The notes under the pieces are model-generated. The model did not search any database. It had not been told where the DNA came from and worked only from the letters and a program-made list of their open reading frames with translations. This document shows, in pieces, positions 3,433 through 30,848 of a stretch of DNA of 30,979 nucleotides (positions within the stretch are counted from its first letter, which is position 1; each line of letters opens with the position of its first letter). The position numbers and the translations under genes were made by a program. Origin of the DNA: a virus; IMG/VR virus record IMGVR_UViG_3300048026_000084, positions 1-30,979 of that record, one strand, 5' to 3'.

Positions 3433-3461
3433 TATATAACGTAATTTTTAGCTTAATTTAT
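3433..3461 (-). promoter_or_regulatory. Phage late-promoter motif, site E (terminase)
   Basis: The minus-strand core ACGTTATATA occupies 3433-3442, identical to four other sites. The upstream element is the weakest of the five (ATAAAT at 3456-3461, 13 nt away). It sits in the gap after the 3458-3793 gene and before the terminase genes; the distance to the next ATG is 30 nt, longer than at the other sites. Confidence 0.55.
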
Positions 3462-3793
3462 TCAGTTCCAGATATTATATCTTTTTTTGGTCTGTCTTGT
3501 AGAATACTAAAGCCTAATAGTAAATAGTTAATAGCATCTGCATATCTACTTTCTATTGGTTCTGCTTGATGCATAGTAGGGTCTCCTGCGTGTGCAAGTA
3601 TTGCTTGTATGTGTTTATTGAAGAATACTGCCCATACTTCCATAGGTTCTATGCCTATAAACTTTGCAGAACATTTAAAGTTATGTAGAATGTCTATATT
3701 CTTTTGTGTGTATTCAGGTTGTTTAGCATTCATTATTTGTTGACAAATGTCTAATAGATATTTTTTTGTTTCTTCAAATTCTTGTTTAGTCAT
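3458..3793 (-). CDS. Conserved phage protein, DUF1599-like, 111 aa
   Basis: An all-helical protein. The order is an N-terminal helix (FEETKKYLLDICQQIMNAK), a PEYTQKNIDILHNFKCSAKFIGI segment, a VWAVFFNKHIQAILAH helix and an ESRYADAINYLLLGFSIL helix (about residues 80-97). This resembles small phage proteins related to DUF1599 (nucleotide-modification-associated domain 1), where a DxxNY-type helix is characteristic; ADAINY fits. A role in nucleotide metabolism is inference only. It overlaps the upstream coiled-coil gene by 8 nt and ends at the terminase promoter. Confidence 0.6.
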   Translation of the reverse strand: MTKQEFEETKKYLLDICQQIMNAKQPEYTQKNIDILHNFKCSAKFIGIEPMEVWAVFFNKHIQAILAHAGDPTMHQAEPIESRYADAINYLLLGFSILQDRPKKDIISGTE

Positions 3794-3992
3794 AATTCAG
3801 TATTGCTTTTTTTATGTATTCGTATATCTCTAATTGATTAATAGCATTGTTAAATTGTAATTCTACTATTTCAAATTCAATGTTATTGTCTTTTTCAATG
3901 TCATCTTCTAATTCTTTTATCAATCGTTTTTGTTCCCATATTTTTGATTGCACTTTTAGTAGTGCTTTATCTTTTAGTTTATTCTCCTGCAT
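3786..3992 (-). CDS. Small coiled-coil protein, 68 aa
   Basis: Almost entirely helical and highly charged. KVQSKIWEQKRLIKELEDDIEKDNN has heptad-like hydrophobic spacing and the second half is FEIVELQFNNAINQLEIYEYIKKAIL. There are no catalytic motifs. It overlaps the DnaA-like gene by 14 nt and the next gene by 8 nt, so it is coupled to both. It may be a partner of the DnaA-domain protein, by position only. Confidence 0.6.
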   Translation of the reverse strand: MQENKLKDKALLKVQSKIWEQKRLIKELEDDIEKDNNIEFEIVELQFNNAINQLEIYEYIKKAILNYD

Positions 3993-4530
3993 AAGCTGTT
4001 GTGCTATCTCTATATTGCCATTCCCATCCTTTTATAAGTAATTCTATTCTTGTTAATGCTTCTCCTTCTAAATGTTTAGGTATTTGATTTACTAACTTAT
4101 ATAATGGTGTTTCGTTTTTTAATCTATTTATTTCTTCTTCAAGTTCTTTACATTTTACTTCTAAATAGTTTTCTCTATTTATTCCTTTTAGATTCATACT
4201 TGTTTTAAGTACAATCATTTCTTCTATTTCTTGAATCTTTTTATTTGTTGATTTGTATATCTCATAGTTTTTAAATGAATGCATTACTGTTGCGTGATTA
4301 ATAGGTGTTCCTGAATCCTCAAAGTATCTTGCTATTTCAGTCCAGCCCATATTTACTTTTTCTCTTAATATATAGAAGAACAATCCTCGCATTTCTACTA
4401 CTTCTCTTTTTCTTGTTTTTTCAAATATGTTTATTCCTGATAGCTGTATTACTTTTTGAGCTATTTCATTTTGTACTGACCAATCATTGTAAACAATTAA
4501 TTCATTAGCCCATTCGTTTTCTTTATTCAT
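3979..4530 (-). CDS. DnaA domain IV-like DNA-binding protein
   Basis: 183 aa. Residues 38-92 resemble the C-terminal DNA-binding domain of the initiator DnaA: the helix KTRKREVVEMRGLFFYILRE, then MGWTEIARYF, then PINHATVMHSFKNYE, which matches the DnaA signature DHTTVxHA. DnaA's AAA+ ATPase is absent. A coiled-coil stretch (about residues 110-140, VKCKELEEEINRLKNE) follows and may dimerise it. It could bind DnaA boxes at the phage origin, or recruit or mimic host DnaA. It is flanked by the 5'-3' exonuclease gene (8-nt overlap) and a coiled-coil gene. Fold assignment is good; biological role is inferred. Confidence 0.8.
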   Translation of the reverse strand: MNKENEWANELIVYNDWSVQNEIAQKVIQLSGINIFEKTRKREVVEMRGLFFYILREKVNMGWTEIARYFEDSGTPINHATVMHSFKNYEIYKSTNKKIQEIEEMIVLKTSMNLKGINRENYLEVKCKELEEEINRLKNETPLYKLVNQIPKHLEGEALTRIELLIKGWEWQYRDSTTAYAGE

Positions 4531-5236
4531 TTCTTAATTTTAAAAGTTTATAACATTCTGCGTATTTCTGTCTTGCTTTGCCTTTGTATTGTTCTTTAAA
4601 TAGTTCGTATAGTTTTTTTGTGTATTGATATTTGGTTTTACAATTTGCATAATACTTTTTTGCAAATGCTTTTCCTCGTCCCCGAAAGTAATTTACATTG
4701 TCAGCCACATCCCCGACTATCATTTGTTCATAGAAGTTATATAATGCTTCTTCTTCACTTATGTCTAATACTACTCTATGTTTATAGTGATAGTTATACA
4801 TTAAACAAGGAAATTGTTTGTAGTCCTTGTCAATGCTTACAATCATTACATTATCCCTTCCAAATTCATTTGATAGTGTTTGCCAATATTTAGCTACTAA
4901 ATCGTCTGTTTCTAATCCATATACAAATTTGCTTTCAAAAGTATCTTTAACGTATTGGTGCATATCGTGAAGAAGTGGAGGTAATTCTTGCTTCTTTCTG
5001 TTTGCTTTATATACTGGTGTTAGTATTTTTCTAAAGTTTCCTTTGCTTCCGTTAAATGTAATTACTTTTTCTATTTCGTAATCTTCTTCTAAATCGTTTA
5101 CAATCTTCATATATTGTTCATCGAATTTAGCAATAGAATCTTCTATGTCTCTATAGTAAGGGTCTTGGTTTTCTTCGTCTTTTGTTCTGTAGCAACTTGC
5201 GAAGATTAAGCTGTCTGCGTCTATGAGTAATATCAT
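4523..5236 (-). CDS. 5'-3' exonuclease / flap endonuclease family protein
   Basis: 237 aa. Acidic metal-binding motifs of the FEN/T5-exonuclease superfamily are visible in order: LLIDADSL (residues 3-10), ETDDLVAKYW (109-118), SIDKDYKQFP (134-143) and GDVADNVNYFRGRGKAFAKK (175-194), which holds a GDxxDN motif followed by a helix-hairpin-helix. It would remove RNA primers or resect 5' ends during replication. There is no polymerase gene nearby, so host polymerase is presumably used. A host-type promoter (5241-5272) lies so close to the ATG that its transcript would be almost leaderless. Confidence 0.85.
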   Translation of the reverse strand: MILLIDADSLIFASCYRTKDEENQDPYYRDIEDSIAKFDEQYMKIVNDLEEDYEIEKVITFNGSKGNFRKILTPVYKANRKKQELPPLLHDMHQYVKDTFESKFVYGLETDDLVAKYWQTLSNEFGRDNVMIVSIDKDYKQFPCLMYNYHYKHRVVLDISEEEALYNFYEQMIVGDVADNVNYFRGRGKAFAKKYYANCKTKYQYTKKLYELFKEQYKGKARQKYAECYKLLKLRNE

Positions 5237-5240
5237 TCTA

Positions 5241-5272: not shown

Positions 5273-5283
5273 TGTTTAATAAT

Positions 5284-6033: not shown

Positions 6034-6536
6034 AATAATTCTTTTATATTATTTAATTGATTGTTTTTAATAAAATAACCATTTGTTTTTAATTTAAAAT
6101 TTGTTCCATTATTTCTTTTTCTTAAAGTACCTTTTTTTAAAAATTCTGATTTTTGTAATAATTCATCTTTTGTAACCCAACCACATATTTCTAAAACATT
6201 GTTTTTTTTGTTCAATGAATTAAATATATATATTTCGCAATCAAATTTATCTTGAAAGGCTATCAAATGGTGTACATATTCATCCTTCATAAATACATTT
6301 CTACCCATAGTTTTTACATCAACTTTTTTATTCTTATACAAAAAATCAAATCCTCCATCAAATCCATTAGTAAATTTATGTTTTACATTAAATACTTCTT
6401 TAGTCAAAACTTCTCCTAATAAACCTACTAATTGGTTTTCTTTATTTCCATTAGCAGAATGTCTATTGCCCATATTATTATTTTGCAAATAATTCCAACA
6501 TTTTAATTTAAGTTCTTCTGTAATGTCTAATGTCAT
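6030..6536 (-). CDS. Putative PD-(D/E)XK endonuclease-like protein, 168 aa
   Basis: GLLGEVLTKEVF (about residues 39-50) followed by FDGGFDFLYKNKKVDVKTMGR (about 59-79) gives the E...D...D-x-K arrangement of PD-(D/E)XK nucleases. The rest is basic and asparagine-rich (KKGTLRKRNNGTNFK), as in DNA-binding proteins. It begins 4 nt inside the sigma-factor gene, so the two are co-expressed. It might be a resolvase, a homing-type nuclease or a host-DNA-degrading enzyme; the sequence does not decide. Confidence 0.6.
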   Translation of the reverse strand: MTLDITEELKLKCWNYLQNNNMGNRHSANGNKENQLVGLLGEVLTKEVFNVKHKFTNGFDGGFDFLYKNKKVDVKTMGRNVFMKDEYVHHLIAFQDKFDCEIYIFNSLNKKNNVLEICGWVTKDELLQKSEFLKKGTLRKRNNGTNFKLKTNGYFIKNNQLNNIKELL

Positions 6537-7012
6537 AATAATTTTTTTAGTTTCTCTTTTACTTTTTTATAAGTATTATAAAGTGAGTAGTAAGGTATGC
6601 CAGACTTTCTTGATAGTTGTGCAATACTTTCTCCACCTTCTATGATCTCAAATATCTTTTTATCATACCAATACATATTGTTTAGTTCGTTTTGTATTGT
6701 AGCATAGACTTCTTCATAATTAGCTGCATCAAAGTCTGCTAAAAAATCCCTCATATTGTCTATAGATAACGTATTGACTTTAGCCTCTTTGCGTTTTAAA
6801 TCAAGGAACAAAGATTTTAATGTCTTAAAAATATAGTAATAATTATAGTCATCTCCAAAATCAATATCTAATCCTTTGTTTATTCTTTTTTGAATTTTGA
6901 TATACATTTCTTGTGTAATATCTTCTGCTGTTTCTTTGTTACAGCCAAAGGAGCAAACAATGTCAATCCATACTTGATGCTTTTTATAGATGTCCGATAA
7001 GTAGTTTTTCAT
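6533..7012 (-). CDS. Phage-encoded sigma-70 family factor (ECF-like)
   Basis: 159 aa, the size of ECF-type sigma factors. Residues 25-45 (NKETAEDITQEMYIKIQKR) match the region 2 signature AEDxxQExF. Residues 58-76 (YYYIFKTLKSLFLDLKRK) correspond to the region 2.3-2.4 helix that melts and reads the -10 element. Residues 117-158 (DKKIFEIIEGGESIAQLSR..., YYSLYNTYKKVKEKLKKL) form a region 4 helix-turn-helix. It would redirect host RNA polymerase to phage promoters. The conserved ACGTTATATA sites are the obvious candidate targets. It lies directly after the RepA-like ATPase gene in the replication operon. Confidence 0.75.
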   Translation of the reverse strand: MKNYLSDIYKKHQVWIDIVCSFGCNKETAEDITQEMYIKIQKRINKGLDIDFGDDYNYYYIFKTLKSLFLDLKRKEAKVNTLSIDNMRDFLADFDAANYEEVYATIQNELNNMYWYDKKIFEIIEGGESIAQLSRKSGIPYYSLYNTYKKVKEKLKKLL

Positions 7013-8989: not shown

Positions 8990-9037
8990 ATTTATTGTAT
9001 TTGTGAAATATAAATATAAACAATTTATTTAATAAAT

Positions 9038-9068
9038 AAAAAAAAGGAGCTAATTTAATTAACCCCCT
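9038..9068 (-). terminator. Probable terminator after NinG
   Basis: On the minus strand GGGGG-TTAATTAAATTAG-CTCC is followed by a run of eight T. The stem is short and includes a G-U pair, so it is weaker than the others. It lies in the 122-bp gap between NinG and the 61-aa gene. Confidence 0.5.
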
Positions 9069-9112
9069 TTCTTGACAAAGACAAATGTAACAGAACTATA
9101 TAAATATAAAAA

Positions 9113-9740: not shown

Positions 9741-9748
9741 CAAATATA
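9741..9748 (-). promoter_or_regulatory. Possible host-type -7 element before zinc ribbon/NinG
   Basis: The minus strand TATATTTG matches TAnnTTTG exactly. No good TTTG lies at the expected -33 distance (the holin stop codon is there). A transcript would start near 9735 and carry a leader of about 130 nt, including the polypyrimidine tract. Confidence 0.4.
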
Positions 9749-12355: not shown

Positions 12356-15300
12356 CTAATTTTTACATTTACATTCTTGTTTCAATTTGTCTACTTCTGC
12401 TTTTAGCTCTTGTATTGACTTAACTAATAATGGAACAATTTTAGAATAATCAACACCTTGCATTTCTTTACCATCTTTTTCTCCATTTACTGCTTTTGGT
12501 AAAACTTCTTGCAGTTCGTGAGCCATAACTCCAAAATCACTAACACCAGATTTTTTTAATTTATATTTATAAACAGGTATTTTAGAAACCATATCTAAAC
12601 CTGCAAAGTCTTGTAAATCTTCTTTTAGCCTATAATCAGAAGCAGATAGATATTGTGTAGTATTAGATGAACCATTAACTACAATTTGACCACAATAATT
12701 TCGTGATGCATCTCTAAAGACAATAGCACCAACATTTGTGTTTGCATCACTACCTGTACTAATATCAACTACATTTCCAGAATTTCCAGATGGTGCTTTT
12801 ATTTCTAACCTATTAGCTAATGTTGGATTATCATCTCCAATTCCTACAACCCCCCCACTTGTAATACGCATTTTTTCTGTAGCAGGAGTATTATCTACAT
12901 TTCCATTTGGTGTATTAGTCCAAAAACTTAAAGCTGTTGGAGAATTTCTTGCTGAACCATTTTCATTTACAATAGCTATTCTACCTGCATCAATAACACC
13001 TTGAGCATTAGAATTATCAAGTGTAGAAAATCCTAAATATCCATTAGAATTTTGTCCTGATACTAAAGAAGTTCTAACTGATACTAATTGTAATATAGAA
13101 TTATAACTATTATTAGTCATTTTATCAGAAAAGAATGTAGCTGTTGTAGGCTCAACTTTTGAGGTAGCTAAATTATAAGGGGGTTGTGTTGCAACTGTAA
13201 ATTTACTATTAACAATGTCTACAACACTACCTGTAGCAGAATAATTAATTCCAACATTTCCAGAACTATTTATACGCATTCTTTCTGCGTTATTACTGTA
13301 AAATGTTAAATTATTTCCAATGCTACCAATACCTTGAAGTGAATAAGTTGTGGTATTATCCATTATAGATAAATACGCAGTGCCATCCGTTGATTGAAAT
13401 TTTGCTACCTCATTAGCAGTTCCACTATCAACAAATAATCTACCTGTATTAACATCTCCTGCAAAAGTTGCGTTTCCTGAACTGTTTATTGTTAATCTTA
13501 ATGTATCAGAAGTATATAACTTAATTTCTTTTGCTTCTTGATTATTAATTAAAAAATCTCCATCTGAATCAATACCCATAACAGTTCCATCACTTGCTGT
13601 TGTTCCTGTTGTTCCATTTGTAAATTGTTGATAAACTGGTGTTGAAGCTGTTGAATTAGATAAACCTAATCTCATATTAGGAGTACCTCCGATTCCTACA
13701 TTTCCTGAACTATCTATACGCATTCTTTCTGTATTGTTAGTACCTGCTGCTGTACCTGCTGTTCTAAAAGATAAATGATTAGTAGCACCACTACTTGATG
13801 TGGTCTCATAAGAAATTGATGCTTTTACACCTGCTCCTGCTCCTGATGCGTCAGCAGAATAAAAATTAATTGCTCCATATTTATCTCCTGTTGACCAACT
13901 TGAATTATTAGTTGTACTTCCTAAAGTTATTATTGAAGTGTTTTTAACACCTTCTAAATTTAAAAGTGTATCAGGCGAATCAGTCCCAATTCCTACATTC
14001 CCTGAACCATTAACTATAAATGCAGTTCCTGCTGAATTATCAACTTGCAATATACCTGTTGTACTTGAAGCTGCATTAGTATTTTTAACGTGTAATCCTA
14101 TTTGATTAAATTCTCCTTGTTCAATATATGCTCCTTTAGTTGCTGCAGAAAAAGGTGCTAATACATCTAATTTAGCACTTGGCGTTACTCCTATTCCTAC
14201 ATCTCCTGCAAAAGTTGCACCTCCTGTATGTGTAAAGGTTATTTTAGGTGTTGTATTTGCATTATGATAAAAATTCAATAATGTACTTGCCCCTCCTGTT
14301 GCACCTATGTCCCAATAACTTGATGCACCACTATTTTCTATTACTCTTAAAGCTGAAAATAAATTTGGAGATACAATGGTTGTAAATGCGTTTAATGATG
14401 CTGCTGCTGTCGTACCAGTACCTACTAATATTTTTCCTGCAAAAGTTGCGTTTTGTGATGTGTCTAAAGTTAAAGCTAAAGTATTATTAGTTAAAAATGC
14501 TAAATTATTATTAGTTGTTGTTCTAATACTATTTTGGTCAACACTTAATGTTTGTGTTGAAGTTTGTAAAAGTAATGTTGCATCTCCAGAAGCAGGGTCG
14601 ACTGTTATTGTATTCCCTGTTACATTAACATCTCCTGTAAAAGTTGCGTCGCCAGAAGTAATTAAACCTCCTGTAATATCTAATTGTGCTTGAGGATTAG
14701 TATTACCACCAAGTCCTATATAACCATTAGAAGTTTTAGCAAATAAAACTGTACTTCCAGTTTGAAAATTATTATCAAAAGATTGAAAAAAGAATCCACC
14801 AAAAGAACCCTTTGCTTCCATTCTCCAGTTGCTATTTGTATTATCAGTATCTTCAAAATCAAGTATTGGTGTTGAATCTGAAATTGTTATGTCATCTCCA
14901 AAAGTAGATTTTCCTGTAACATCTAAAGTTCCTGCAACTAAAGTATTTCCACTTGTAGCATTTACTGTAAACTTATTTGTGTTTATTGCTAAATCGCCTG
15001 TAAAAGCAGTATTTCCACTTGAAGAAGCTACTGTAAATTTATTTGTATTTACTGCAAAGTTTCCTGTTGAACTTAAATTAGTATTTGTTGTTAATGAACC
15101 ATCTACTGTTATTGCGCTACCTGATTCAGAAACTATTGAATCTGCTATTACACTTGTTGATGACCATTTAGTTAAGTTTCCTGTTGTTCCTGTTCCGTCT
15201 ACTTGGCTATGGTCTAATTTAGTCCATTGATTGTTTGCACCTGCTATAACCCAGTCTCCGACTGTCCAGTTAGAAACACCATTTAAACTTGTAGTACCTC

Positions 15301-16864
15301 CTACACTTACAACGTAATAATGTCCTTGCGTTATAAAAGGGCTATTATCTATTGTATAGGCTTCTCCACTTAACATTATGTCAGCATCTAAAGAAAGTGT
15401 TGTATCGCTATCTACGTTTGAAACTAATGCAGTTTGACCATCTACTTGGTTAACTACTTTGTCTCCTACTGTTACTGTACTTGTGAAAGAAGCAGAACTA
15501 TCTACTAACTTGTTTGCACTTGTTGAAGTTGTTGTTCCGTTTGCAGCTTCTCCACCACCATCGCTTAATACTGGCGAATTAGTATCTGCATCCCAAGAAC
15601 CTATAAATCTTAAACCACCTGCTAATCCGTTTACTTGTGATTGTAATTTTCCAAACCCTTCAACTATTGTATCTGTAGCTAAAACAGAACTTGCAGAAGG
15701 CGAAGTTAATCCTGTTAATACTTTGCCTGTTACTGAATTGTTATCTAAAGTTACTGCACCACTTACATTATTAGTTCCGTCTACACTTGAAATAGTACCT
15801 GTTGCTTGACCTGTTAAAGATAAATCTCTTGCAGTTTGCCATTTCGTAGCTGTATCTGCGTTTCCTGTAAGGTCTCCAGTTACATCTCCTTGTACATTTC
15901 CTGTAACATTGCCTACTAAATTTGTTGAAATAGAACTTGGTAAACCTATTTGTATTTCTTGACCTGAACCAGATGTTTCAATTTCATTAGTTGTTCCTAC
16001 TACACTTAAAGTTTCAGAATTTAAAACTACTGCACCACTACCTGAATCTGTTATAAAATCTAAATCACTTGCATTGTTTAAACCTTTTACATAAGCAGTT
16101 GTCGCTACTTTTGTGGAATCATCACTTGAAGATTGTGTTGTAGCTACAGAACCATTTGGCAATGTAACCCCTGCACTTGGAAATTGTAAACTTAATCCTT
16201 GACCAGAAGCAGAAGATTCTATTTGATTTGCAGTTCCTGTTACTGCGAATGTTTGTGTGTTTAAATTAACATCGCCTGTTCCACTATCTCCAGAAAAATC
16301 TAAATCACTTGCAGCGTCTAAAGTGTCTACATAAGAAGTTGTAGCTATTTTTGTAGAATTATCTCCTGCTGTTTGTGTAATAGCATTTGAATTGTTAGGT
16401 AAATTAACACCTGTAGAATCTAAAGAAAATGTTATTGATTGACCAGAAGCTACTGTTGTTATTTCGTTTGTAGTTCCTCCTATTGCAAATATTTGTGAAT
16501 CTAAATCTATTTGACCAGAACCTGTATCGCCTGTAAAATCTAAATCCTCAATAGTAATTTGAGCAGCAACATAATCAATTATTGCAGCTGTAGTAGGAAT
16601 TGTTGTATCGTTATCATTATTACTTATACCATCTGCAGCATCTACAAATTTACTTATTGTAATGTTTTCTCCTGTATCTTTTAAAGAACCAAATTCAAGT
16701 ATTGCAGTAACTTTAAAATCTCCTGCTGTATTCATAAATATTCCACTTGCTAATCCTGTACCATCTGTAAGTTCTTTTAATGATGCAGTTAAGGCAGCAT
16801 TATCAATAGTTTTGATTAGCCCTGAATAAGTATCTGATATTCTTGTGTTAAATAGACTTGCCAT
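12356..16864 (-). CDS. Tail fibre/spike with S74 intramolecular chaperone
   Basis: 1502 aa, the longest gene. The N-terminus (1-106) attaches to the tail. Residues 107-312 are 80-residue tandem repeats with DLDF, GTTNEI and STKxATTxYV blocks. The middle (about 560-1380) repeats SGNTxFTGD, NVGIG, ERMRIDSSGN blocks typical of beta-helical trimeric fibres. The C-terminus (1409-1502) is a peptidase S74/endosialidase chaperone: S1409-D1410 in SASDYRLKEDL is the expected self-cleavage dyad, followed by PVYKYKLKKSG, DFGVMAHELQEVLP and a C-terminal coiled coil. The chaperone trimerises the fibre then cuts itself off. It should set host specificity. Confidence 0.9.
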   Translation of the reverse strand: MASLFNTRISDTYSGLIKTIDNAALTASLKELTDGTGLASGIFMNTAGDFKVTAILEFGSLKDTGENITISKFVDAADGISNNDNDTTIPTTAAIIDYVAAQITIEDLDFTGDTGSGQIDLDSQIFAIGGTTNEITTVASGQSITFSLDSTGVNLPNNSNAITQTAGDNSTKIATTSYVDTLDAASDLDFSGDSGTGDVNLNTQTFAVTGTANQIESSASGQGLSLQFPSAGVTLPNGSVATTQSSSDDSTKVATTAYVKGLNNASDLDFITDSGSGAVVLNSETLSVVGTTNEIETSGSGQEIQIGLPSSISTNLVGNVTGNVQGDVTGDLTGNADTATKWQTARDLSLTGQATGTISSVDGTNNVSGAVTLDNNSVTGKVLTGLTSPSASSVLATDTIVEGFGKLQSQVNGLAGGLRFIGSWDADTNSPVLSDGGGEAANGTTTSTSANKLVDSSASFTSTVTVGDKVVNQVDGQTALVSNVDSDTTLSLDADIMLSGEAYTIDNSPFITQGHYYVVSVGGTTSLNGVSNWTVGDWVIAGANNQWTKLDHSQVDGTGTTGNLTKWSSTSVIADSIVSESGSAITVDGSLTTNTNLSSTGNFAVNTNKFTVASSSGNTAFTGDLAINTNKFTVNATSGNTLVAGTLDVTGKSTFGDDITISDSTPILDFEDTDNTNSNWRMEAKGSFGGFFFQSFDNNFQTGSTVLFAKTSNGYIGLGGNTNPQAQLDITGGLITSGDATFTGDVNVTGNTITVDPASGDATLLLQTSTQTLSVDQNSIRTTTNNNLAFLTNNTLALTLDTSQNATFAGKILVGTGTTAAASLNAFTTIVSPNLFSALRVIENSGASSYWDIGATGGASTLLNFYHNANTTPKITFTHTGGATFAGDVGIGVTPSAKLDVLAPFSAATKGAYIEQGEFNQIGLHVKNTNAASSTTGILQVDNSAGTAFIVNGSGNVGIGTDSPDTLLNLEGVKNTSIITLGSTTNNSSWSTGDKYGAINFYSADASGAGAGVKASISYETTSSSGATNHLSFRTAGTAAGTNNTERMRIDSSGNVGIGGTPNMRLGLSNSTASTPVYQQFTNGTTGTTASDGTVMGIDSDGDFLINNQEAKEIKLYTSDTLRLTINSSGNATFAGDVNTGRLFVDSGTANEVAKFQSTDGTAYLSIMDNTTTYSLQGIGSIGNNLTFYSNNAERMRINSSGNVGINYSATGSVVDIVNSKFTVATQPPYNLATSKVEPTTATFFSDKMTNNSYNSILQLVSVRTSLVSGQNSNGYLGFSTLDNSNAQGVIDAGRIAIVNENGSARNSPTALSFWTNTPNGNVDNTPATEKMRITSGGVVGIGDDNPTLANRLEIKAPSGNSGNVVDISTGSDANTNVGAIVFRDASRNYCGQIVVNGSSNTTQYLSASDYRLKEDLQDFAGLDMVSKIPVYKYKLKKSGVSDFGVMAHELQEVLPKAVNGEKDGKEMQGVDYSKIVPLLVKSIQELKAEVDKLKQECKCKN
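15929..16546 (-). repeat. 80-residue tandem repeats in the tail fibre
   Basis: Three units begin at DLDF (residues 107, 187, 267), exactly 80 residues (240 bp) apart; the third is shorter. Each carries GSG/GTG, a T-N-x-I-E/T segment, ASGQ or GSGQ and, in the first two, an N-S-T-K-x-A-T-T-x-Y-V end. DNA identity is lower than protein similarity, so the duplication is old. Confidence 0.8.
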
Positions 16865-17455: not shown

Positions 17456-19495
17456 CTATTTTGGGTATGCTCCTCTATTAGGCATATTAATTGGTGCTAT
17501 TTCTGATTGTTTAGTTCCTCTTGGATTTTTAATATACGTTTTAGGTATTGTTCTTGTTTTCTTGTAATCGATTAAATCTTTAGAAGGTTTTGTATTTTTC
17601 TTTAAACGATATAGTTGACGCATCCATTTATGTCTACAATATATCCCACCTTTGAATTTAAATAAATCATAAGGTTTTTTGTTATGTCCTAATTCTCTAT
17701 TCACACCATCTCTTGACGCTTTATCAATATCTTCAAGTCTATATACAATTCCACTTTTAGATAAACGCATCATATTCTCGCAAAAATCTCTTGTAGAATT
17801 ACTTGGTTTTTTAGAACCTACTGCATATTTATATCTAATTTTATAATTTTTAGAATCTAAATAACTAAAGCCATCTGGTTTAGCACTTATTTCGTCTTTT
17901 AGTTGTTGGAATAAACTCTTTTTTTCATCAATACAAATGTTAGCCCAGTCTTCATCGCTTATTTCAGAACCTTCTTGTAATTCATCTACAAGTTCCCATT
18001 CTTCATTTATTACTTCTCCTTTTAAGTTTTCTAAAATAACATCTCCAAGTTCACTTGACATTTTAATAGGAATACAATTAGGTACTAAACGACCACCTTT
18101 TACTTTCATTCCGTATTGTTCGTAACCAGTTTCACAAGGTTTCTTTAAATCTATTTCATCGTGTGATTCACAAGGCATATACCATACTTTATCTCCTTCT
18201 TTGTGTTCGTGATGACCAGAACATCCCATTTTTTTTGCTTGTTCTTCTGCTTCTTCTTTAGTTTCGTAAACTTCGTAACCGTCTACTTCTTTTAATTCAA
18301 CAGACATTTTAACTCCTGTTTCTTCTTCTATATCTTCATCACTTTGTACACTTCTATCAACATCTGTAAATTCTAATGGCTGTAACGTAATAAAGTATAG
18401 GTTTAAGGCAATATTATTGTAAGCAAGTATAGTATCAAAGCAATCTATTAAAAGTTCCTGAAATGGTCTTATAACAGTATTATCCATAAGTAAGGAAGCA
18501 GTTTTTATTTCATCTGCATTATTTCCTAATCCTGTATTGTCTTTTATACCTAATAACATAGGACTAACAACTCTATGGGCTACTAATACTTTACTTTGTG
18601 ATTCATCACTTAAAAATTGATATTGGTTATGTGCATCACTTAATTGAACTGGTGTTATTTCAGCTTGTGCGTCTTTGTTGTCGTTGAAACTTAAAATAAA
18701 TTTACCTGCATTAGAACTACCTGAAAACTTTTGTGCTATTCTTGCTTCTATAAGTTCTCTTTCTTGTGGATTAGGTGTTCCGTTGTTAAAGTTAATTAAC
18801 ATTGAAGGACTTAAACCATTCATTATGTTGTTTAGGTGGTAATTAGAAATTTCTTCTTCTAATTCAGCATATTGAATACCTCCTTGATAATCTACAGGTG
18901 CGTAATAATAAAAACCAGACTTGTAAGGTTTTATGTAATATATTTCTATATTTTCTTTTGACATCCCATAAGCTGGTATTCTTAACGGCTTGTCGCTTGG
19001 TTTTAATTTAGCCCAGTCTTTGAAATAATAGTAAGCAGGTATATCTCCATCTTCATTACATTTTTCTGCTCTTAATGTTTCTACTGGTATGTGTTCTATT
19101 TGTGCAATCTTATTTCTGTCTTTAGAATAAATTATTTGCATAGCACATTGACCCATAAGTTTAAGGTCATAACTTAATTTTCTAACTACATCTTTTTTTA
19201 GAAGCGTAATCATTTCAGCGTATTGTTCTGGCTTTCTATTTGAATCTGTAGCTCCTAAACCTTTCCCATAAATTTGTTGGCTAATACCATTAATACAAGC
19301 GTTGTTTGTAGGACTTCCATTGTATCTGTCTATTAAAAATTGAAAGTAATTATTGTCATCGCCATAAGCTATCCAATCTTGATTAGGTACTTCAACAATT
19401 TCTGGACTTGTATAAGTACTTAAATTTACAAAACTTACTTCTGATTTAGACCCTCTAACAAATTGACCTAAACTATTTCTTTTTCTTTTTTTCAT
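17456..19495 (-). CDS. Portal protein with modular C-terminal extension
   Basis: 679 aa, far longer than a usual portal of 400-500. Residues 1-385 resemble PBSX-type portals: WIAYGDDNNYFQFLIDRYNG (41-60), HIPVETLRAEK (135-145), LSPSMLINFNNGTPNPQERE (228-247), VLVAHRVVSPMLLGI (303-317) and a FQELLIDCFDTIL helix. Residues 395-679 are non-portal modules: MGCSGHHEHKEG...VWYMPCESH (423-445), CETGYEQYGMKVKGGRLVPN (454-473), an acidic EWELVDELQEGSEISDEDW (499-517) and RDFCENMMRLSKSG...GGIYCRHKWMRQLY (569-629). These occur in other phages attached to head proteases. The portal forms the dodecameric DNA gate; the role of the extension is unknown. Confidence 0.85.
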   Translation of the reverse strand: MKKRKRNSLGQFVRGSKSEVSFVNLSTYTSPEIVEVPNQDWIAYGDDNNYFQFLIDRYNGSPTNNACINGISQQIYGKGLGATDSNRKPEQYAEMITLLKKDVVRKLSYDLKLMGQCAMQIIYSKDRNKIAQIEHIPVETLRAEKCNEDGDIPAYYYFKDWAKLKPSDKPLRIPAYGMSKENIEIYYIKPYKSGFYYYAPVDYQGGIQYAELEEEISNYHLNNIMNGLSPSMLINFNNGTPNPQERELIEARIAQKFSGSSNAGKFILSFNDNKDAQAEITPVQLSDAHNQYQFLSDESQSKVLVAHRVVSPMLLGIKDNTGLGNNADEIKTASLLMDNTVIRPFQELLIDCFDTILAYNNIALNLYFITLQPLEFTDVDRSVQSDEDIEEETGVKMSVELKEVDGYEVYETKEEAEEQAKKMGCSGHHEHKEGDKVWYMPCESHDEIDLKKPCETGYEQYGMKVKGGRLVPNCIPIKMSSELGDVILENLKGEVINEEWELVDELQEGSEISDEDWANICIDEKKSLFQQLKDEISAKPDGFSYLDSKNYKIRYKYAVGSKKPSNSTRDFCENMMRLSKSGIVYRLEDIDKASRDGVNRELGHNKKPYDLFKFKGGIYCRHKWMRQLYRLKKNTKPSKDLIDYKKTRTIPKTYIKNPRGTKQSEIAPINMPNRGAYPK

Positions 19496-19920
19496 ATTAC
19501 AATGTAATCATTATTATAAGAATTGTCTGTTATGTATTGACCTTGATTTATGTCATAATATAAATTATCCATTTGGTCTATTTCTTGGTCTGTACAGAAA
19601 ATCCTGTCTTTAAATATATCTACAATGTTTGTTGTATCTACATTCCAAAATTCATTATATAATTCCCAAAGAAAATAATTAGTATTCCAAAAGTTTGGGT
19701 CTGTATATAATTCTAAATCGTAAAAATGACCTTCAACAAGTACAGGACTAAACGCTTGTGAAAATGTTAAATAATTTCCAGATGTTATAGCTCCTGTAAC
19801 TTCATATATTTGTTTGACGTTTGTACTATCGTCTCTTATAGATAAAGTAAATTCGCTTCCGTAAACTCTTGGAATTACCTTAAAGTCTTGAGCCGATGTA
19901 ATAGTCTTTAATACAATCAT
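19492..19920 (-). CDS. Conserved virion-module protein, 142 aa
   Basis: All-beta N-terminal half (DFKVIPRVYGSEFTLSIRDD, YEVTGAITSGNYLTFSQAF) resembling an immunoglobulin-like or beta-sandwich domain, followed by an aromatic LYTDPNFWNTNYFLWELYNE and an acidic, tyrosine-rich end (DQMDNLYYDINQGQYITDNS). Many marine flavobacterial phages carry similar genes next to portals. It starts right after a phage-type promoter (19925-19953) and a terminator, and overlaps the portal start by 4 nt, so it heads the portal transcript. Function unknown. Confidence 0.6.
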   Translation of the reverse strand: MIVLKTITSAQDFKVIPRVYGSEFTLSIRDDSTNVKQIYEVTGAITSGNYLTFSQAFSPVLVEGHFYDLELYTDPNFWNTNYFLWELYNEFWNVDTTNIVDIFKDRIFCTDQEIDQMDNLYYDINQGQYITDNSYNNDYIVI

Positions 19921-19924: not shown

Positions 19925-19953
19925 TATATAACGTAATAAATAACTTATTTTGT
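19925..19953 (-). promoter_or_regulatory. Phage late-promoter motif, site D (portal operon)
   Basis: The minus-strand core ACGTTATATA is at 19925-19934; 13 nt upstream lies ACAAAA (19948-19953). The core ends 4 nt before ATG 19920. It directly follows the terminator at 19968-19994, the expected terminator-promoter order. Confidence 0.7.
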
Positions 19954-20621: not shown

Positions 20622-21590
20622 TTAAGAATAAAGTACTATTTCAGACCCTATTCCGTACTGTACTCCAGCAGTAAATCTCATAATTACTCTTACGTTTTTA
20701 CTTCCGTCAATGTCAGCCATATCAATTAGCTTAACAAGGTTGTAATCAGACATTAAGCCTGTTCCAAAGAATAAGTTAGATTTTTGTGCAGCCATTGCAT
20801 AATTGTTTGGTAAACCATTAGCAACAAAGATTTTTACACCATCAATAGAAAGATTTTCTCCTCCTGCATACCATAGTGTACCTCTATTGTCAATTCCATT
20901 TGCACCTACAGAACCTACATTTTCAGTTCCTGCAACGTTAGTTATAGCAGCATATCCACCTAAAGCTCTTACATATGCTTTAGCAATGTTTTGTGAAACG
21001 TAAATGTGTAAATCGTCTTTACCATATAATGTGCTTGGAATAGCATCTACAATTTTTCCAAGTTCAGCAATAACATTTCCTGAATTAACTCCACCACCTA
21101 CAGCAGCAACGTCAATTACGTCTGCATCAGCAGTAGCTAAAGTTGTGAATCCGTCAAATTCTCCAGCTTGTGCGCCACCAAGATTTCCTTGCCAGATATT
21201 GCTTTCAGTATTAGCAGATACTTGTTCTGCAACGTGAGCAATTAAAAAACTTGAAAAATCAGGAGGTAAATTATCAAAAGCTGAATAGCCCATAGATACT
21301 GCACCCCAATCTGACTCAAATGGTGTTTTACATAATTCAAGGTTAACTTGAAATTCTGTTGGCTGTATGATTCTTTCAGTAAGTGTAACAGACCCAGCAG
21401 ATGTGAAGTCACAAGAGTCATCTGTAATTAAACCAGAAGTAACTACTTTTTTCATAACTTCTTTAAACTTGATGTTTGGCTTAATTTCGACAGCACCCTG
21501 ACTTAATGTGTTACCACTCAATAGAGCAGCAGCGATGTACTTACCTGCAAATTCTCCAGCATAAGTAGTAGTAATAGTTGGTTGTGGCAT
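20622..21590 (-). CDS. Major capsid protein (HK97-fold expected)
   Basis: 322 aa. Landmarks: MPQPTITTTYAGEFAGKYIA, an N-arm with KPNIKFKEVMKKVVTSGLIT, DFTSAGSVTLTERIIQPTEF, QVNLELCKTPFESDWGAVSM (the E-loop/P-domain region), a long helix FSSFLIAHVAEQVSANTESN, and an A-domain with DLHIYVSQNIAKAYVRALGG and GLPNNYAMAAQKSNLFFGTG. The end IMRFTAGVQYGIGSEIVLYS is typical of the P-domain strand. The gene follows scaffold by 11 nt and is followed by its own terminator, as expected for the most abundant virion protein. Confidence 0.85.
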   Translation of the reverse strand: MPQPTITTTYAGEFAGKYIAAALLSGNTLSQGAVEIKPNIKFKEVMKKVVTSGLITDDSCDFTSAGSVTLTERIIQPTEFQVNLELCKTPFESDWGAVSMGYSAFDNLPPDFSSFLIAHVAEQVSANTESNIWQGNLGGAQAGEFDGFTTLATADADVIDVAAVGGGVNSGNVIAELGKIVDAIPSTLYGKDDLHIYVSQNIAKAYVRALGGYAAITNVAGTENVGSVGANGIDNRGTLWYAGGENLSIDGVKIFVANGLPNNYAMAAQKSNLFFGTGLMSDYNLVKLIDMADIDGSKNVRVIMRFTAGVQYGIGSEIVLYS

Positions 21591-21601: not shown

Positions 21602-22267
21602 TTATTTATTTAATTGATTTAATATATAGTCCATTGTAGAAGGGCGTCTGTTAGGAGCAATTCTAAAATTTTCCTTTTTTGCATTTCCAGCTTCTGGATT
21701 ATGCTTGATTGGAGCAGCAGCAGGTTGTGATAATTCTTCCTTTAATTGCTCGTTTACTTCTTCGTTAAATTCTTCTTTAATTGTTCTGGATTTAGGTTGT
21801 CTTGAAACTTCTTCTTCCATTTCAACTTCTTTTTCTTCTTCCATATTGCTTTCTCCTACTTTAGATTTAAGGTCAGCAATGGCATCTTCAAGATTTTTAA
21901 TTCTTTTTTCCATACCAGCCCAGTCTTCTACGTCAGCTTCTTCTTCCATTTCTTCTTCCTTGTCTTTGTACTCTAAATCTTCAGTTTCATCTTTAGATTC
22001 TTCTTCCTTTTGTGGAACTTCGTCAGATACTTCTCTAACGTCATCAATAATTCCTTCTTCTGCAACAACTACAAGTCTACCATCTTCAAGTAGGTATTCT
22101 CCTACTGGCATAGCAACTTTTTCGTCATCTGTAAGAATGAATATCTCTTTACCTTTTTCAAACGATTCTGCTTCTACACGAGTGCCGTTCTCAAGTTTTT
22201 GTTCTTCAAGTTTAACTTCTATATTTAGAAGGGTCTTGATTTGGTTTAACATTTCAGTTGATTTCAT
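21602..22267 (-). CDS. Acidic scaffold-like protein, 221 aa
   Basis: N-terminal 1-75 contain MLNQIKTLLNIEVKLEEQKL and a beta-rich part (GKEIFILTDDEKVAMPVGEY, LLEDGRLVVVAEEGIIDDVR). Then comes a strongly acidic segment (QKEEESKDETEDLEYKDKEE, EMEEEADVEDW), a coiled coil (MEKRIKNLEDAIADLKSKVG) and a basic C-terminus (HNPEAGNAKKENFRIAPNRR) ending in a short helix MDYILNQLN. Acidic coiled-coil plus basic C-terminal capsid-binding helix immediately before the capsid gene is the layout of a scaffolding protein. Homologues carry EDGRxxxVxxG-like segments in Bacteroidota phages. It has its own promoter (site C). Confidence 0.7.
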   Translation of the reverse strand: MKSTEMLNQIKTLLNIEVKLEEQKLENGTRVEAESFEKGKEIFILTDDEKVAMPVGEYLLEDGRLVVVAEEGIIDDVREVSDEVPQKEEESKDETEDLEYKDKEEEMEEEADVEDWAGMEKRIKNLEDAIADLKSKVGESNMEEEKEVEMEEEVSRQPKSRTIKEEFNEEVNEQLKEELSQPAAAPIKHNPEAGNAKKENFRIAPNRRPSTMDYILNQLNK

Positions 22268-22274: not shown

Positions 22275-22303
22275 TATATAACGTGGTTAATTAATTTTTT
22301 TGC
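22275..22303 (-). promoter_or_regulatory. Phage late-promoter motif, site C (scaffold/capsid)
   Basis: The minus-strand core ACGTTATATA is at 22275-22284, with GCAAAA (22298-22303) 13 nt upstream. The core ends 7 nt before the scaffold ATG (22267). Further upstream it shares ACAATAT and AATGCAAAA with site B. Confidence 0.7.
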
Positions 22304-22892: not shown

Positions 22893-23750
22893 TTATATTA
22901 TTTTTGCTGATTTTGCTTCGCTGTTTACTTTGTAATACAAATCATTAATTTCATTTAATCCTTTTACATCAGAATACTTTAAACCTATTTTAACTACTGC
23001 AGCTTTAAATTGATTTAACCATTTTACAGTTTTTAAAATTTCTGGTTTAGTTTCATTTTTAAAAGATTCAAAATCTCTAATCCCTTTTTGTATTTGTTTT
23101 AATTTAGCTTCGTATTTAGGAATTTCTTTAACATTAGCCAATTCTACTTTTTCGCCTTTAACGATTTTTTCTATTTCACTTAATAATAAGTCTGCTTGTT
23201 TTTCTGACATATCTTCTTTAATTGATTCTTTTGGTCGTTCCATTTTATCTGCAAAGTAGCCTTCTATTGAAAACCCTTTTACTTTACCTGTTTTTACATA
23301 GTCATTCCAGACTTCATCATTGTTGACTTTTACAGCTCCCATCCAAGTACCTACTGGTACATTCATACCATACTTTCTGGACTTGTCGTGTACTTCATCT
23401 TCAACAAGCCAAGATTCTACTAAACTTAAACCACTTAATGAATGTTGGTGTTCTAATGTAGAATTGTTTTGATTGCCTTTTGTCAAATACATTTGGGATG
23501 CTTTCAATACCGTATCTTTAGAGAAGTATATATAATATTCATCTTCTCCATTATTTCGATATATAGGCTTGTTTGGTATTAATAAAGCTCCCATTAATAT
23601 CTTTTTTTCTTTATCTATTTCTGCAAGTTTAATTTCATTACTTTTTAAAGCAACAAAATCTTCTTCTATGGCAGGATTTTCAACTATGGATATTGCTTCG
23701 ATTCCAGAAGCATCTTGATTTTCGTCAAGTATCAATTCGACTATCTTCAT
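22893..23750 (-). CDS. XkdF-like prohead serine protease
   Basis: 285 aa. The N-terminus ELILDENQDASGIEAISIVE then NPAIEEDFVAL is the XkdF (PBSX) signature. KKILMGALLIPNKPIYR (49-65), YYIYFSKDTVLKASQMYL (72-89), STLEHQHSLSGLSLVESWLV (97-116; candidate catalytic H101 or H103), VPVGTWMGAVKVNNDEVW and GKVKGFSIEGYF (155-166; candidate nucleophile S161) complete the protease domain. Residues 200-285 are a helical module starting GEKVELANVKEI. It would cleave scaffold and capsid precursors during maturation. The scaffold and capsid genes follow two genes downstream. Confidence 0.8.
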   Translation of the reverse strand: MKIVELILDENQDASGIEAISIVENPAIEEDFVALKSNEIKLAEIDKEKKILMGALLIPNKPIYRNNGEDEYYIYFSKDTVLKASQMYLTKGNQNNSTLEHQHSLSGLSLVESWLVEDEVHDKSRKYGMNVPVGTWMGAVKVNNDEVWNDYVKTGKVKGFSIEGYFADKMERPKESIKEDMSEKQADLLLSEIEKIVKGEKVELANVKEIPKYEAKLKQIQKGIRDFESFKNETKPEILKTVKWLNQFKAAVVKIGLKYSDVKGLNEINDLYYKVNSEAKSAKII

Positions 23751-23754: not shown

Positions 23755-23783
23755 TATATAACGTTATTAATTAAAAATTTTGC
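23755..23783 (-). promoter_or_regulatory. Phage late-promoter motif, site B (protease)
   Basis: The minus-strand core ACGTTATATA is at 23755-23764, with GCAAAA (23778-23783) 13 nt upstream. The core ends 4 nt before ATG 23750. It fills the 35-bp gap after the tape measure gene. Confidence 0.7.
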
Positions 23784-28084: not shown

Positions 28085-29079
28085 TATCTAATGTTGTTTA
28101 TGTAATCAAATGACATATCAAAATCAAATGTGTAATCTATTAACCTTTCATTTAATGATGTTTTTTGTATCATACTATTTTTCTTTACATTGACAGGAAC
28201 ATATTGTGTTGAATTTGGATTAGTAGGGTCTTGTCTTGTAAGCCAAACTTGCTCCGACAATAGTAATTGCTCAAACCATTGATTAGCCCATTCAGGATAA
28301 TATCCACTACTTAATGTTATACTTGTGTTTGCAACTGTATTATAATCTTGTTTAGTATGTACATAAGGGCTATAAACTCCTGCTGTATTTAAAACAACTC
28401 TTTGAAATTGCTCTTGTTTTTTTGTTGTTGTGTTTACTGATTTTAAAAAGAACCATAAGTCTTGTAATGCACCAAACTTATTTACAAATGTAATTTTATG
28501 TCCATCTCCATATTTAGTACAATCAATTCTATTTATATTCATTTTAATCCCAGCAGGACTTCCTACAATATCTAAAGCTGTAGCCCCATAACTTTGATAG
28601 CCCATAGTCTCGTTGGCAATTATATAAGGAACAGAACCTGATGTATTGTTAGGTACATAAATATAGTATTCATCATTTATTCCTGTATGGTCAGGGTCTC
28701 CACTTATAAGCCAAGTAGGTCTTGAGCCAAAAGGTACTGTTGGATTTGAGCCTTCTGTAAAAGTTCCATAACCATCATAACCTATATCAGTTATTGTTGA
28801 TGTTGTTAAAGCTGTTCCACTACCGTCTGTTGATGCGTGTGATGTTAAAGTAGATATAATAGCTAAAGTTTCAGCAGTATAAGAACCATCATAAGTTACG
28901 TTTATAAAATCCCTACATAGTTCTGCTATTTCCCAAAGCATATTTGCTCCTGCTGTTGCTCTTTTTACCAAAGTATATTCTATTGTTCCATCAATACTAA
29001 TAGTTATTTTAGCAGAATTAGCTCCTGTACCTGCTGCTGCGTATTTATATTGTGGACTTCTTAATGCTATTGCTGCCAT
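28084..29079 (-). CDS. Distal tail protein candidate, 331 aa
   Basis: MAAIALRSPQYKYAAAGTGA then KITISIDGTIEYTLVKRATA and ANMLWEIAELCRDFINVTYD form an N-terminal beta domain. HKITFVNKFGALQDLWFFLK (about 203-222) and SLNERLIDYTFDFDMSFDYI (about 308-327) are recurring landmarks in Bacteroidota phage tail genes. It overlaps the tail-tip gene by 1 nt. Likely a distal tail or tip-connecting protein given the order (completion, distal tail, tip, tape measure). No enzyme motif is visible. Confidence 0.55.
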   Translation of the reverse strand: MAAIALRSPQYKYAAAGTGANSAKITISIDGTIEYTLVKRATAGANMLWEIAELCRDFINVTYDGSYTAETLAIISTLTSHASTDGSGTALTTSTITDIGYDGYGTFTEGSNPTVPFGSRPTWLISGDPDHTGINDEYYIYVPNNTSGSVPYIIANETMGYQSYGATALDIVGSPAGIKMNINRIDCTKYGDGHKITFVNKFGALQDLWFFLKSVNTTTKKQEQFQRVVLNTAGVYSPYVHTKQDYNTVANTSITLSSGYYPEWANQWFEQLLLSEQVWLTRQDPTNPNSTQYVPVNVKKNSMIQKTSLNERLIDYTFDFDMSFDYINNIR

Positions 29080-29082
29080 TGT

Positions 29083-29616
29083 TTATTTTTTTGTTCCTAA
29101 TATTATTCCTTTTTCTATATCTAATACAAAGTCTTTTACTAATTCTTCTGGCAGTCTTTTAAATGCTGCTTCAAATGGTTTAGTAAAAAAGTATGTAGGT
29201 TTAAACCCTTGTGCGTATATACTTCTTTGTAATACAAATGCCATACTCTTATAACTTCCTTTTGCAAATTGACCTTTTTTGTCTCTAAATCTTATGTTCT
29301 TTTTTTGCGCCCATTCCCTTAAAGGTTGCATTGGTGGCATTTTCTGTTTGTAACTAAACTTACTACTTGGGGCTTTTTGTTTACCTCCTTTTATTAAACT
29401 TGGATTTGCACCCTTAACACCTTCGTCTTGAAACATACCATAATCTTCCATATAGAAGTCAAGTATAAATCCTTTTTGTTCTTCGTCTAATGTGTATCTT
29501 ATTGAATCGTATAAAGCACCACCACCTTGATTTCCTTTTGTTAGGTTTGACTTTGATTGTTGAACAACATATTTACCAAAATTATTTAGGGCTTTATTTA
29601 TATTCTCAAAATTCAT
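29083..29616 (-). CDS. HK97 gp10-like neck/tail completion protein
   Basis: 177 aa, very basic. INKALNNFGKYVVQQSKSNL (6-25), LYDSIRYTLDEEQKGFILDF (35-54), YMEDYGMFQDEGVKGANPSL (55-74) and PLREWAQKKNIRFRDKKGQF are characteristic of the HK97 gp10 / minor tail completion family: a helix, a beta sheet with a DYGxFQDxGVxG turn, then a basic C-half. It starts on the last base of the upstream tail-terminator-like gene. It probably joins head and tail at the neck. Confidence 0.65.
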   Translation of the reverse strand: MNFENINKALNNFGKYVVQQSKSNLTKGNQGGGALYDSIRYTLDEEQKGFILDFYMEDYGMFQDEGVKGANPSLIKGGKQKAPSSKFSYKQKMPPMQPLREWAQKKNIRFRDKKGQFAKGSYKSMAFVLQRSIYAQGFKPTYFFTKPFEAAFKRLPEELVKDFVLDIEKGIILGTKK

Positions 29617-30086
29617 TAACAGATTCTTATGTCGTTATAAATTACTATATCCATTGTTGCAGTCCATCCTGCTAATTGGTTTTCAAACCTATCGTAAAAT
29701 GGTTCACAATTTACAGGACTATCAAGCTGATACATATCTTGATGTAGTGTTCCCATTCTTAAAACCTGAATTACTTTATTTAATACTGCGAGTTGTGTGT
29801 TTAGAATATCTTGTTCATTGTTGTTTCCTATAAACCTATCTTCTGTTAGTTGTTTAGATTGGTCTACTATATCCATTGCCAAGATGCTTATGTTAAAATT
29901 AAGCGTTTGTTCTTCTTGTGTTACGTTGTTTACTATAATGTGAGCAAGGGGAAATATGTCTTGCTTGTTTAAATTAACATCGTATATGTCTCCTGTTGTT
30001 ACTGTGTTGCAGTTTACGTCTGCAAGTAATTGTGCTTTTATAGTTTCAGTTAATTGGTAAAACCCTCTTATTCCTTGTTGGCTCAT
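29616..30086 (-). CDS. Tail terminator-like protein, 156 aa
   Basis: MSQQGIRGFYQLTETIKAQL, then NTVTTGDIYDVNLNKQDIFP, LAHIIVNNVTQEEQTLNFNI, SILAMDIVDQSK and NEQDILNTQLAVLNKVIQVL, ending in ENQLAGWTATMDIVIYNDIR. This alternation (helix, beta strands, helix, strands) and the LAGWxxxxDIxIxND end match tail-terminator/tail-tube-completion proteins. Its ATG overlaps the frameshifted chaperone stop as ATGA. It lies directly before the gp10-like gene, the usual order. Confidence 0.6.
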   Translation of the reverse strand: MSQQGIRGFYQLTETIKAQLLADVNCNTVTTGDIYDVNLNKQDIFPLAHIIVNNVTQEEQTLNFNISILAMDIVDQSKQLTEDRFIGNNNEQDILNTQLAVLNKVIQVLRMGTLHQDMYQLDSPVNCEPFYDRFENQLAGWTATMDIVIYNDIRIC

Positions 30087-30816
30087 TTAAATTTACTTTT
30101 TATTTGTTTCGATTCTAATTCGTTTTTGTCTTTCATAAATGCTAACATCATTAAACATTGATGCATATTTAGTTTAGTGATATTTTCAAATCTTGTAATA
30201 TCTCCTCCAGCGAGTCCGTAAAGGCTTGAATACCATCCCCATTTCTTTGCAAATCCAGCACGTCCAGTAGTTGTTTCTCCTCCTTGTTCTCCAAATAATT
30301 CATCATAGTTTTCGACAATTCTATCCCTAAACGATAAAAAAAAATAATAGAACCAAATACAGCATCCATTGGCATCTGTAGTAGATGGTCTTTTGTTTCT
30401 ACATTATAATCTTCTATAAGGTATTTATCGCCTAACTTTTGTTTAATAGGTCTGTATAGTACATTCATTGCTGTATGTATGTTTTCCCAGTCTCCCATAT
30501 AGGTATCAAGGTCAATGTATTCTCCTAATGTAATTTCATCTAAATCAGGAACAAACCCATATTCAACACCACCTAAATAGAAACTTTTAACCAAGTCTGG
30601 TTTTTCTTCAAACATATTAGATATTAAATTAGCAATACGATTTGCGTCTGATAGTTTAATGTTTAAAGCATCTTGAGGTTTAACCCTACAAAATATTTCA
30701 ATCATTTTGGTTTGTATGAAGTTATTGTCTTTGCTGTCTTGTACTTTTAAGAACTTTTGATATTGCTTTAATGTAATCTCATTAAGTTCAGTAGGCACGT
30801 TTATATTAGCTTTCAT
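30083..30816 (-). CDS. Tail assembly chaperone G-T fusion via -1 frameshift, 244 aa
   Basis: Shares residues 1-160 with the G product, then shifts -1 at T9 (30336-30344) and reads LSFRDRIVENYDELFGEQGG, ETTTGRAGFAKKWGWYSSLY, GLAGGDITRFENITKLNMHQ, CLMMLAFMKDKNELESKQIK, SKFK to TGA 30083. That 84-codon frame is open, has no ATG near its beginning, and contains the KWGWYSxLYxLAGGDITxxE pattern of T-domain extensions. In lambda-like phages G and G-T act on the tape measure protein and recruit tail tube subunits. The stop overlaps the next ATG. Confidence 0.75.
30169..30816 (-). CDS. Tail assembly chaperone G (unshifted product), 215 aa
   Basis: An all-helical protein: INVPTELNEITLKQYQKFLK (5-24), QDALNIKLSDANRIANLISN, DEITLGEYIDLDTYMGDWEN (93-112) and HTAMNVLYRPIKQKLGDKYL (114-133). 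The C-terminus LGIELSKTMMNYLENKEEKQ through SLEEILQDLKISLN is coding-like in this frame as well, so both frames are used over about 150 nt. It follows promoter site A and the terminator of the previous transcript, making it the first gene of the tail transcript. The G-like function is inferred from the frameshift architecture and the downstream tail genes. Confidence 0.75.
   Translation of the reverse strand: MKANINVPTELNEITLKQYQKFLKVQDSKDNNFIQTKMIEIFCRVKPQDALNIKLSDANRIANLISNMFEEKPDLVKSFYLGGVEYGFVPDLDEITLGEYIDLDTYMGDWENIHTAMNVLYRPIKQKLGDKYLIEDYNVETKDHLLQMPMDAVFGSIIFFYRLGIELSKTMMNYLENKEEKQLLDVLDLQRNGDGIQAFTDSLEEILQDLKISLN
30336..30344 (-). promoter_or_regulatory. Slippery sequence for -1 frameshifting
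   Basis: Nine T on the minus strand (in frame AT-T TTT TTT TAT) satisfy X-XXY-YYZ with tRNA-Phe slippage at codons 159-160. The downstream -1 frame is open for 84 codons. Confidence 0.7.
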
Positions 30817-30819
30817 ACT

Positions 30820-30848
30820 TATATAACGTAATTAAAGTAGGATTTTAG
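30820..30848 (-). promoter_or_regulatory. Phage late-promoter motif, site A (tail operon)
   Basis: The minus-strand core ACGTTATATA is at 30820-30829, with CTAAAA (30843-30848) 13 nt upstream. The core ends 3 nt before ATG 30816. It lies just downstream (in transcription) of the strong terminator. Confidence 0.7.

Follow-up and report, generated by a model that had tools for sequence, protein, structure and literature searches.

Five copies of a two-part motif before the late genes of an environmental phage: probable promoters for a phage-encoded ECF-like sigma factor

Genome layout and the five motif copies

The window analysed here, one strand of the viral record IMGVR_UViG_3300048026_000084 (positions 1–30,979; 30,979 nt), ends in a 127-nt direct terminal repeat and thus looks like a complete circular assembly of about 30.85 kb, as do four relatives with terminal repeats of 127 nt (G006 and G025), 123 nt (G008) and 118 nt (G020). 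Five motif sites, numbered P1 to P5 along the minus strand, precede the virion and terminase genes. P1 leads into the gene of a 215-aa protein (30169–30816) and then head-tail and tail genes, P2 into a gene for an S78_2/XkdF-like protease (22893–23750), P3 into a scaffold-like gene named by its position (21602–22267) and then the capsid candidate (20622–21590), P4 into a gene for a 142-aa protein (19492–19920) and then the portal gene (17456–19495), and P5 into a 44-aa ORF followed by the TerS-like (2991–3257) and TerL (1792–2994) genes. The early block of the window, from about 9.0 to 3.5 kb, holds recombination-like genes, an AAA ATPase gene, a sigma-like gene and a gene for a DnaA-like HTH protein, and has no late-type motif site. 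The 1502-aa protein encoded at 12356–16864, in which short DLDFSGDSG-like motifs recur close to the N-terminus, is probably structural, for example a fibre, and at 742–1379 three small genes share AAAACAAAACAA directly before the ATG, an A-rich, Kozak-like initiation context.

The earlier note, made from the letters of the window, had described five minus-strand copies of ACGTTATATA, four of them 3–7 nt before an ATG and four with an (A/G/C)(C/T)AAAA box exactly 13 nt upstream. All of this holds on recount, with no copy on the plus strand (Table 1); P5 is the odd site in both respects. The two sites that it placed directly after terminators are P1 and P4, if its letters run in transcription order, and since both lie directly 3' of a hairpin and T run, each opens a new transcription unit. 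Between 0.05 and 0.09 exact copies of ACGTTATATA are expected by chance per strand, so that five or more have a probability of about 5e-8; corrected for all 10-mers, the significance is about 0.05, and the window count alone is therefore only suggestive. All five copies are intergenic in a genome of which 6.6% is intergenic (chance about 1e-6). The inner genes of each late operon in the window lack the motif, and nothing else is conserved in the space from motif to ATG. A conserved leader, GATTGAATAAACAATAA, follows P5 ahead of the terminase genes (3393–3432, minus strand) and is found in relatives too.

Table 1 Features of the window discussed in the text
Feature	Position	Strand	Remark
P1 −35-like box CTAAAA	30843–30848	−	13 nt from core
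P1 −10-like core ACGTTATATA	30820–30829	−	ATG 3 nt downstream
Terminator-like hairpin and T run just upstream of P1	30853–30879	−	inside the 127-nt terminal repeat, also at 1–27
P2 −35-like box GCAAAA	23778–23783	−	13 nt upstream of core
P2 core ACGTTATATA	23755–23764	−	ATG 4 nt downstream
P3 −35-like box GCAAAA	22298–22303	−	13 nt upstream of core
P3 core ACGTTATATA	22275–22284	−	ATG 7 nt downstream
Terminator-like hairpin and T run upstream of P4	19968–19992	−	from sequence
P4 −35-like box ACAAAA	19948–19953	−	13 nt upstream of core
P4 core ACGTTATATA	19925–19934	−	ATG 4 nt downstream
P5 −35-like box ATAAAT (weaker)	3456–3461	−	13 nt upstream of core
P5 core ACGTTATATA	3433–3442	−	ATG of 44-aa ORF 30 nt beyond core; leadered
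Gap before the sigma-containing early operon, with TACATTTG (host sigmaA-like −7 box)	8990–9112	−	candidate early promoter, weak
159-aa ECF-like sigma (sigma2 and sigma4)	6533–7012	−	proposed specificity subunit for P1–P5; profiles, predicted fold

The gaps of the early block look different. In relatives they contain host-type TATATTTG boxes, several of them 17–30 nt before a gene; those of the window, TATATTTG at 9748 and TACATTTG at 9089, are weaker candidates. Judged by these boxes, a Bacteroidota sigmaA promoter probably serves the phage early genes. The phage appears to be one of marine flavobacteria; a host among the Flavobacteriaceae is suggested by the same TATATTTG early boxes together with the P12024 relatives described below. 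A conserved unit also precedes the early operon, at 8990–9112 on the minus strand of the window and near positions 3697 in G010, 10052 in G018, 3647 in G015 and 4804 in G036; it consists of a TATATTTG-type box, GTTCTGTT and a hairpin with a T run, followed in several relatives by a TATATTTG-like box. This unit looks like a short RNA or an attenuator; an Rfam search of the window returned no match.

The sigma-like protein and its association with the motif

The product of the sigma-like gene is short and comprises only sigma2 and sigma4, the domain content of an ECF sigma factor, with the sigma2 motifs DIxQEMY and FLDLKRK and a C-terminal HTH. It falls below curated HMM cut-offs (Pfam Sigma70_r2, 15.9 bits against 24; TIGR02937, 21.8 against 42.9), weak Sigma70_r2 matches occur in 19 of 23 family members, and the general sigma70-ECF model reaches an E value of 5e-7 in the best family member. 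The AlphaFold model is all-helical (pLDDT 82, pTM 0.58), and its top Foldseek matches in the PDB are all ECF sigmas (SigE, AlgU, SigL, SigH and SigW) at a probability of about 1.0. The best PDB match has an E value of 1.1e-3 and a TM score of about 0.4, with none below 1e-3, probably because the domain orientation differs. Foldseek against viral models recovered the P12024S protein, and hhalign links the window sigma to P12024L gp35 with 96% probability. Searches of phage records by tblastn, with either the window sigma or P12024L gp35, gave no match or Nonlabens phages only, so the link is visible to profiles and beyond the reach of single-sequence search. A search of bacterial genomes with the window sigma returned no relative and therefore no host or prophage clue. 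Taking profiles and predicted fold together, we regard the 6533–7012 protein as a divergent ECF-type sigma and not a textbook member.

Motif and gene occur together. A DNA-pattern scan of viral contigs for AAAA-N13-ACGTTATATA yielded 21 contigs of at least 15 kb, which we tested with the sigma profile: the sigma gene was present in 8 of the 11 contigs with at least two motif copies and in none of the ten with one (Fisher p = 8e-4). Of the three multi-copy contigs without it, two are fragments of 16–18 kb, and some fragments have the motif with no sigma gene detected.

Relatives were collected by a protein search with the window sigma, which returned 80 viral loci at 55–100% identity. Across these loci, ACGTTATATA occurs 73 times on the strand of the sigma gene and never on the reverse strand, and 84 of 84 copies in 25 contigs are likewise on the sigma strand. 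By position weight matrix (PWM), near-complete relatives typically have five sites, before the p215/tail, protease, scaffold/capsid, p142/portal and terminase genes; genomes of the close group have 5–7 forward and no reverse sites above threshold, the most divergent genomes have fewer, and G023 has one weak reverse match. The scan of relatives that the earlier note had proposed thus finds the motif on one strand, between genes and in a conserved place ahead of late operons, and the random scatter inside genes that would have spoken against a promoter is absent.

A logo of 58 distinct sites, picked solely by the 10-mer and left unfiltered, has AAAA at a fixed spacing (95, 91, 97 and 71%) and TA at core positions +12/+13 (83 and 95%), also where no ATG follows. 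The TA falls at the expected start point of an ECF promoter, which is often the position of the ATG. We relied on this logo since the one built for leader lengths in the window group had been prefiltered for A at −35. One relative, G002 (37.4 kb; loci L089 and L090), has seven motif copies, among which the p215-type and the terminase-type promoter each appear twice; a chimeric contig or a partial duplication may account for this.

Re-spelled −10 boxes and start-codon placement

In phages with 60–66% capsid identity, the sigma gene is still recognised but diverged (profile E values of 9e-20 to 2e-32 in ten of the contigs tested, with G047 and G054 closer), and ACGTTATATA is absent. Neither P12024 nor the AT-only group described below has a site by the window PWM. 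Unsupervised k-mer counting upstream of genes yielded other spellings instead, at corresponding positions and with similar spacing: CGTTATCA in G053, G055, G057 and G058 (17 forward, 0 reverse; AAAACA upstream), and CGTTAATA with AAAACAAA in P12024L/S, G060 and G061. Intermediate spellings, ACGTAATA or CGTTATA, occur in G047 and G054. In G049, G050 and G056 and in G052 and G059, AATTTTTAAA or ATTAATA replaces CGTT, at two to four sites each and none in reverse; these AT-rich motifs are less certain, and at orthologous places the group retains ACAA[AT] and a spacing of about 13 nt. Of all the observations, this change of spelling among relatives speaks most strongly for the promoter reading.

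The sigma tree splits the same groups as the −10 spelling. At positions 71 and 74 (region 2.4, the ECF DxxR stretch), 25 of the 26 CGTT-group sigmas shown have D/R and one has D/L, and all six AT-only sigmas have Q/N. Sigma and −10 box thus appear from sequence to have diverged in parallel while the A-box and spacing stayed similar. This covariation is confounded by shared descent, and the loss of CGTT was probably one evolutionary event, so that the D71/R74 link is a lead and not proof. In two AT-only phages, G050 (L355 and L356) and G052 (L359 and L360), TerL is about 69% identical to that of the window despite their sigma and −10 type, against about 30% in their sister phages; their packaging genes were probably exchanged.

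The start codon usually lies at a set distance from the −10 box. Counted from the C of CGTT as far as the first base of the ATG, this spacing amounts to exactly 12 nt in 15 of the 17 CGTTATCA sites and in 12 of the 15 CGTTAATA sites. Of the 142 sites in the window group, 103 have a spacing of 12, 13 or 16 nt, which is largely the same for a given gene. Protein N-termini are conserved starting at the motif-proximal ATG. In ordinary ECF geometry, transcription starts about 12–13 nt after the C of the CGT box, which predicts a leader of 0–4 nt for most late mRNAs; P5 of the window group would have one of about 25–30 nt. The near-leaderless transcripts foreseen in the earlier note thus gain support from fixed distances in the sequence. 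In mapped Bacteroidota most mRNAs have a leader (PMC9723704, PMC6847099, PMC7366714): leaderless ones make up 5.5% of the examined mRNAs in F. psychrophilum (PMC9723704), and in B. thetaiotaomicron about 4% of 5' UTRs are shorter than 10 nt.

Interpretation and known systems

Several pieces of evidence suggest that the five motifs act as late promoters specific to the phage, very probably read by host core RNA polymerase with the phage ECF-like sigma: (i) The motif keeps to one strand and to the gaps between genes, recurs ahead of late operons in relatives and accompanies the sigma gene. (ii) The CGTT in the −10 position, noted early on as reminiscent of ECF promoters, has a counterpart in Flavobacterium ECF promoters with a CGT −10 box (PMC9723704). 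(iii) The 6533–7012 product, already put forward as the partner of host core polymerase, resembles ECF sigmas in its predicted fold, co-occurs with the motif and has diverged where the −10 box shifts. The late sites have the CGT −10 of ECF boxes at about ECF-like spacing, with AAAA or ACAA and not AAC at −35. The promoter would consist of the −35-like (A/G/C)(C/T)AAAA, 14 nt and then CGTTATATA. Early genes, including that of the sigma, would first be made from host sigmaA-type promoters, after which host core polymerase would bind with the sigma and turn to the virion and terminase genes. In four of the five cases the ATG would sit at the expected transcription start, giving mRNAs translated with no leader or nearly none. 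Besides the points given above on profile cut-offs, fold matches, shared descent and motif-bearing fragments, two further ones weigh against this reading: host ECF sigmas also use CGT, and P5 is leadered with a weak −35.

The strongest alternative, which we consider unlikely, is that the sites are promoters read by a host ECF sigma, or by sigmaA with a phage activator, the phage sigma-like protein being otherwise employed. Several ECF sigmas are present in flavobacteria, where one class of motifs includes the CGT −10 (PMC9723704); against a host ECF sigma, motif and phage sigma co-occur and change together between groups with orthologous late genes. A host sigmaA promoter at the late sites was rejected, as a TAnnTTTG −7 box overlaps none of the five, in line with the mismatch reported at the outset. 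An operator bound by a phage activator, repressor or antiterminator, in place of a core promoter, seems very improbable: the motif is indeed a short conserved intergenic site ahead of operons, but its two boxes keep a fixed distance, its orientation is strict and TA stands at the expected start, and the start codons at fixed distance occupy the space that a separate promoter would need, where nothing else is conserved. We give slightly less weight still to the idea that the motif acts in the mRNA, as a signal for translation initiation. Bacteroidota initiate without Shine-Dalgarno sequences and with A-rich upstream bases, an upstream A raises initiation in Flavobacterium johnsoniae (PMC6847099), and the motif adjoins the ATG; however, P5 keeps it about 30 nt from the ATG, inner operon genes do without it, the A-box 13 nt farther up is conserved and two sites directly follow terminators. 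A chance repeat or assembly artefact, for which the corrected window significance might speak, is the least credible reading of all, and chance is ruled out by the strand count in the 80 related loci and the recurrence of the same five genes in relatives.

Under the reading as phage-specific late promoters, the comparison spells out a concrete code of sigma and promoter for a group of environmental phages that is widespread and whose transcription is, as far as we found, unstudied; a literature search of openly available journal papers returned no description of the motif or of P12024 promoters. If the late mRNAs do start at the AUG, virion proteins would be translated in a way seldom seen in mapped hosts. 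We give about even odds to a broader proposal, that the lineage has a hard-wired leaderless late programme in which sigma and −10 box were repeatedly re-specified while the A-box and spacing were kept, with D71/R74 to Q/N going with the loss of CGTT. The parallel changes in −10 box and sigma2 residues make such ECF-like promoter re-specification testable by residue swaps, and re-specified pairs could give orthogonal promoters for Bacteroidota.

Cultured relatives exist in the Nonlabens phages P12024L and P12024S (Inhavirus; NC_018272 and NC_018271; TerL 57%), a pair that can serve as a test system for the code. Like the window they encode a 159-aa protein with Sigma-70 region 2 (gp35 and gp33, respectively), and their late genes have CGTTAATA with AAAACAAA upstream and the ATG 12 nt from the C. 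They differ in the spelling of the −10 and of the A-box, and P12024L has about seven sites. Among host promoters, those of Flavobacterium psychrophilum SM6 (sigma ECF) share the CGT −10 box but serve a host regulon, type IX secretion (PMC9723704), whereas the Bacteroidota sigmaA promoter (TTTG / TAnnTTTG) is unmatched by the late sites. With its middle and late promoters, Thermus phage P23-45 likewise moves host RNA polymerase from one promoter class to another, but there an extended −10 is read by host sigmaA with the phage modifier gp39 and no phage sigma (PMC7403470).

Phages phiEco32 and 7-11 encode ECF sigmas with their own promoters (PMC4331800), and the phiEco32 sigma is reported, in work cited in PMC7881722, to bind E. 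coli RNA polymerase. The consensus sequences of these middle/late promoters are TAATGTATA and TGATGTTATA, respectively (PMC4331800, PMC5333181), with an extended −10 and no recognisable −35 (PMC5333181). The window phage resembles them in its ECF-like sigma, in the proposed phage-specific promoters before structural genes and in the proposed use of host promoters for early genes. It differs in its −10, CGTTATATA, with an A-box at fixed spacing in place of the TAATGTATA/TGATGT consensus without a −35, in start codons on the expected start site and in its probable Bacteroidota hosts. Thus, a phage ECF sigma with its own promoters is already known; the new elements would be the two-part promoter, the built-in leaderlessness, the Bacteroidota hosts and the clade-by-clade re-specification of the −10 box.
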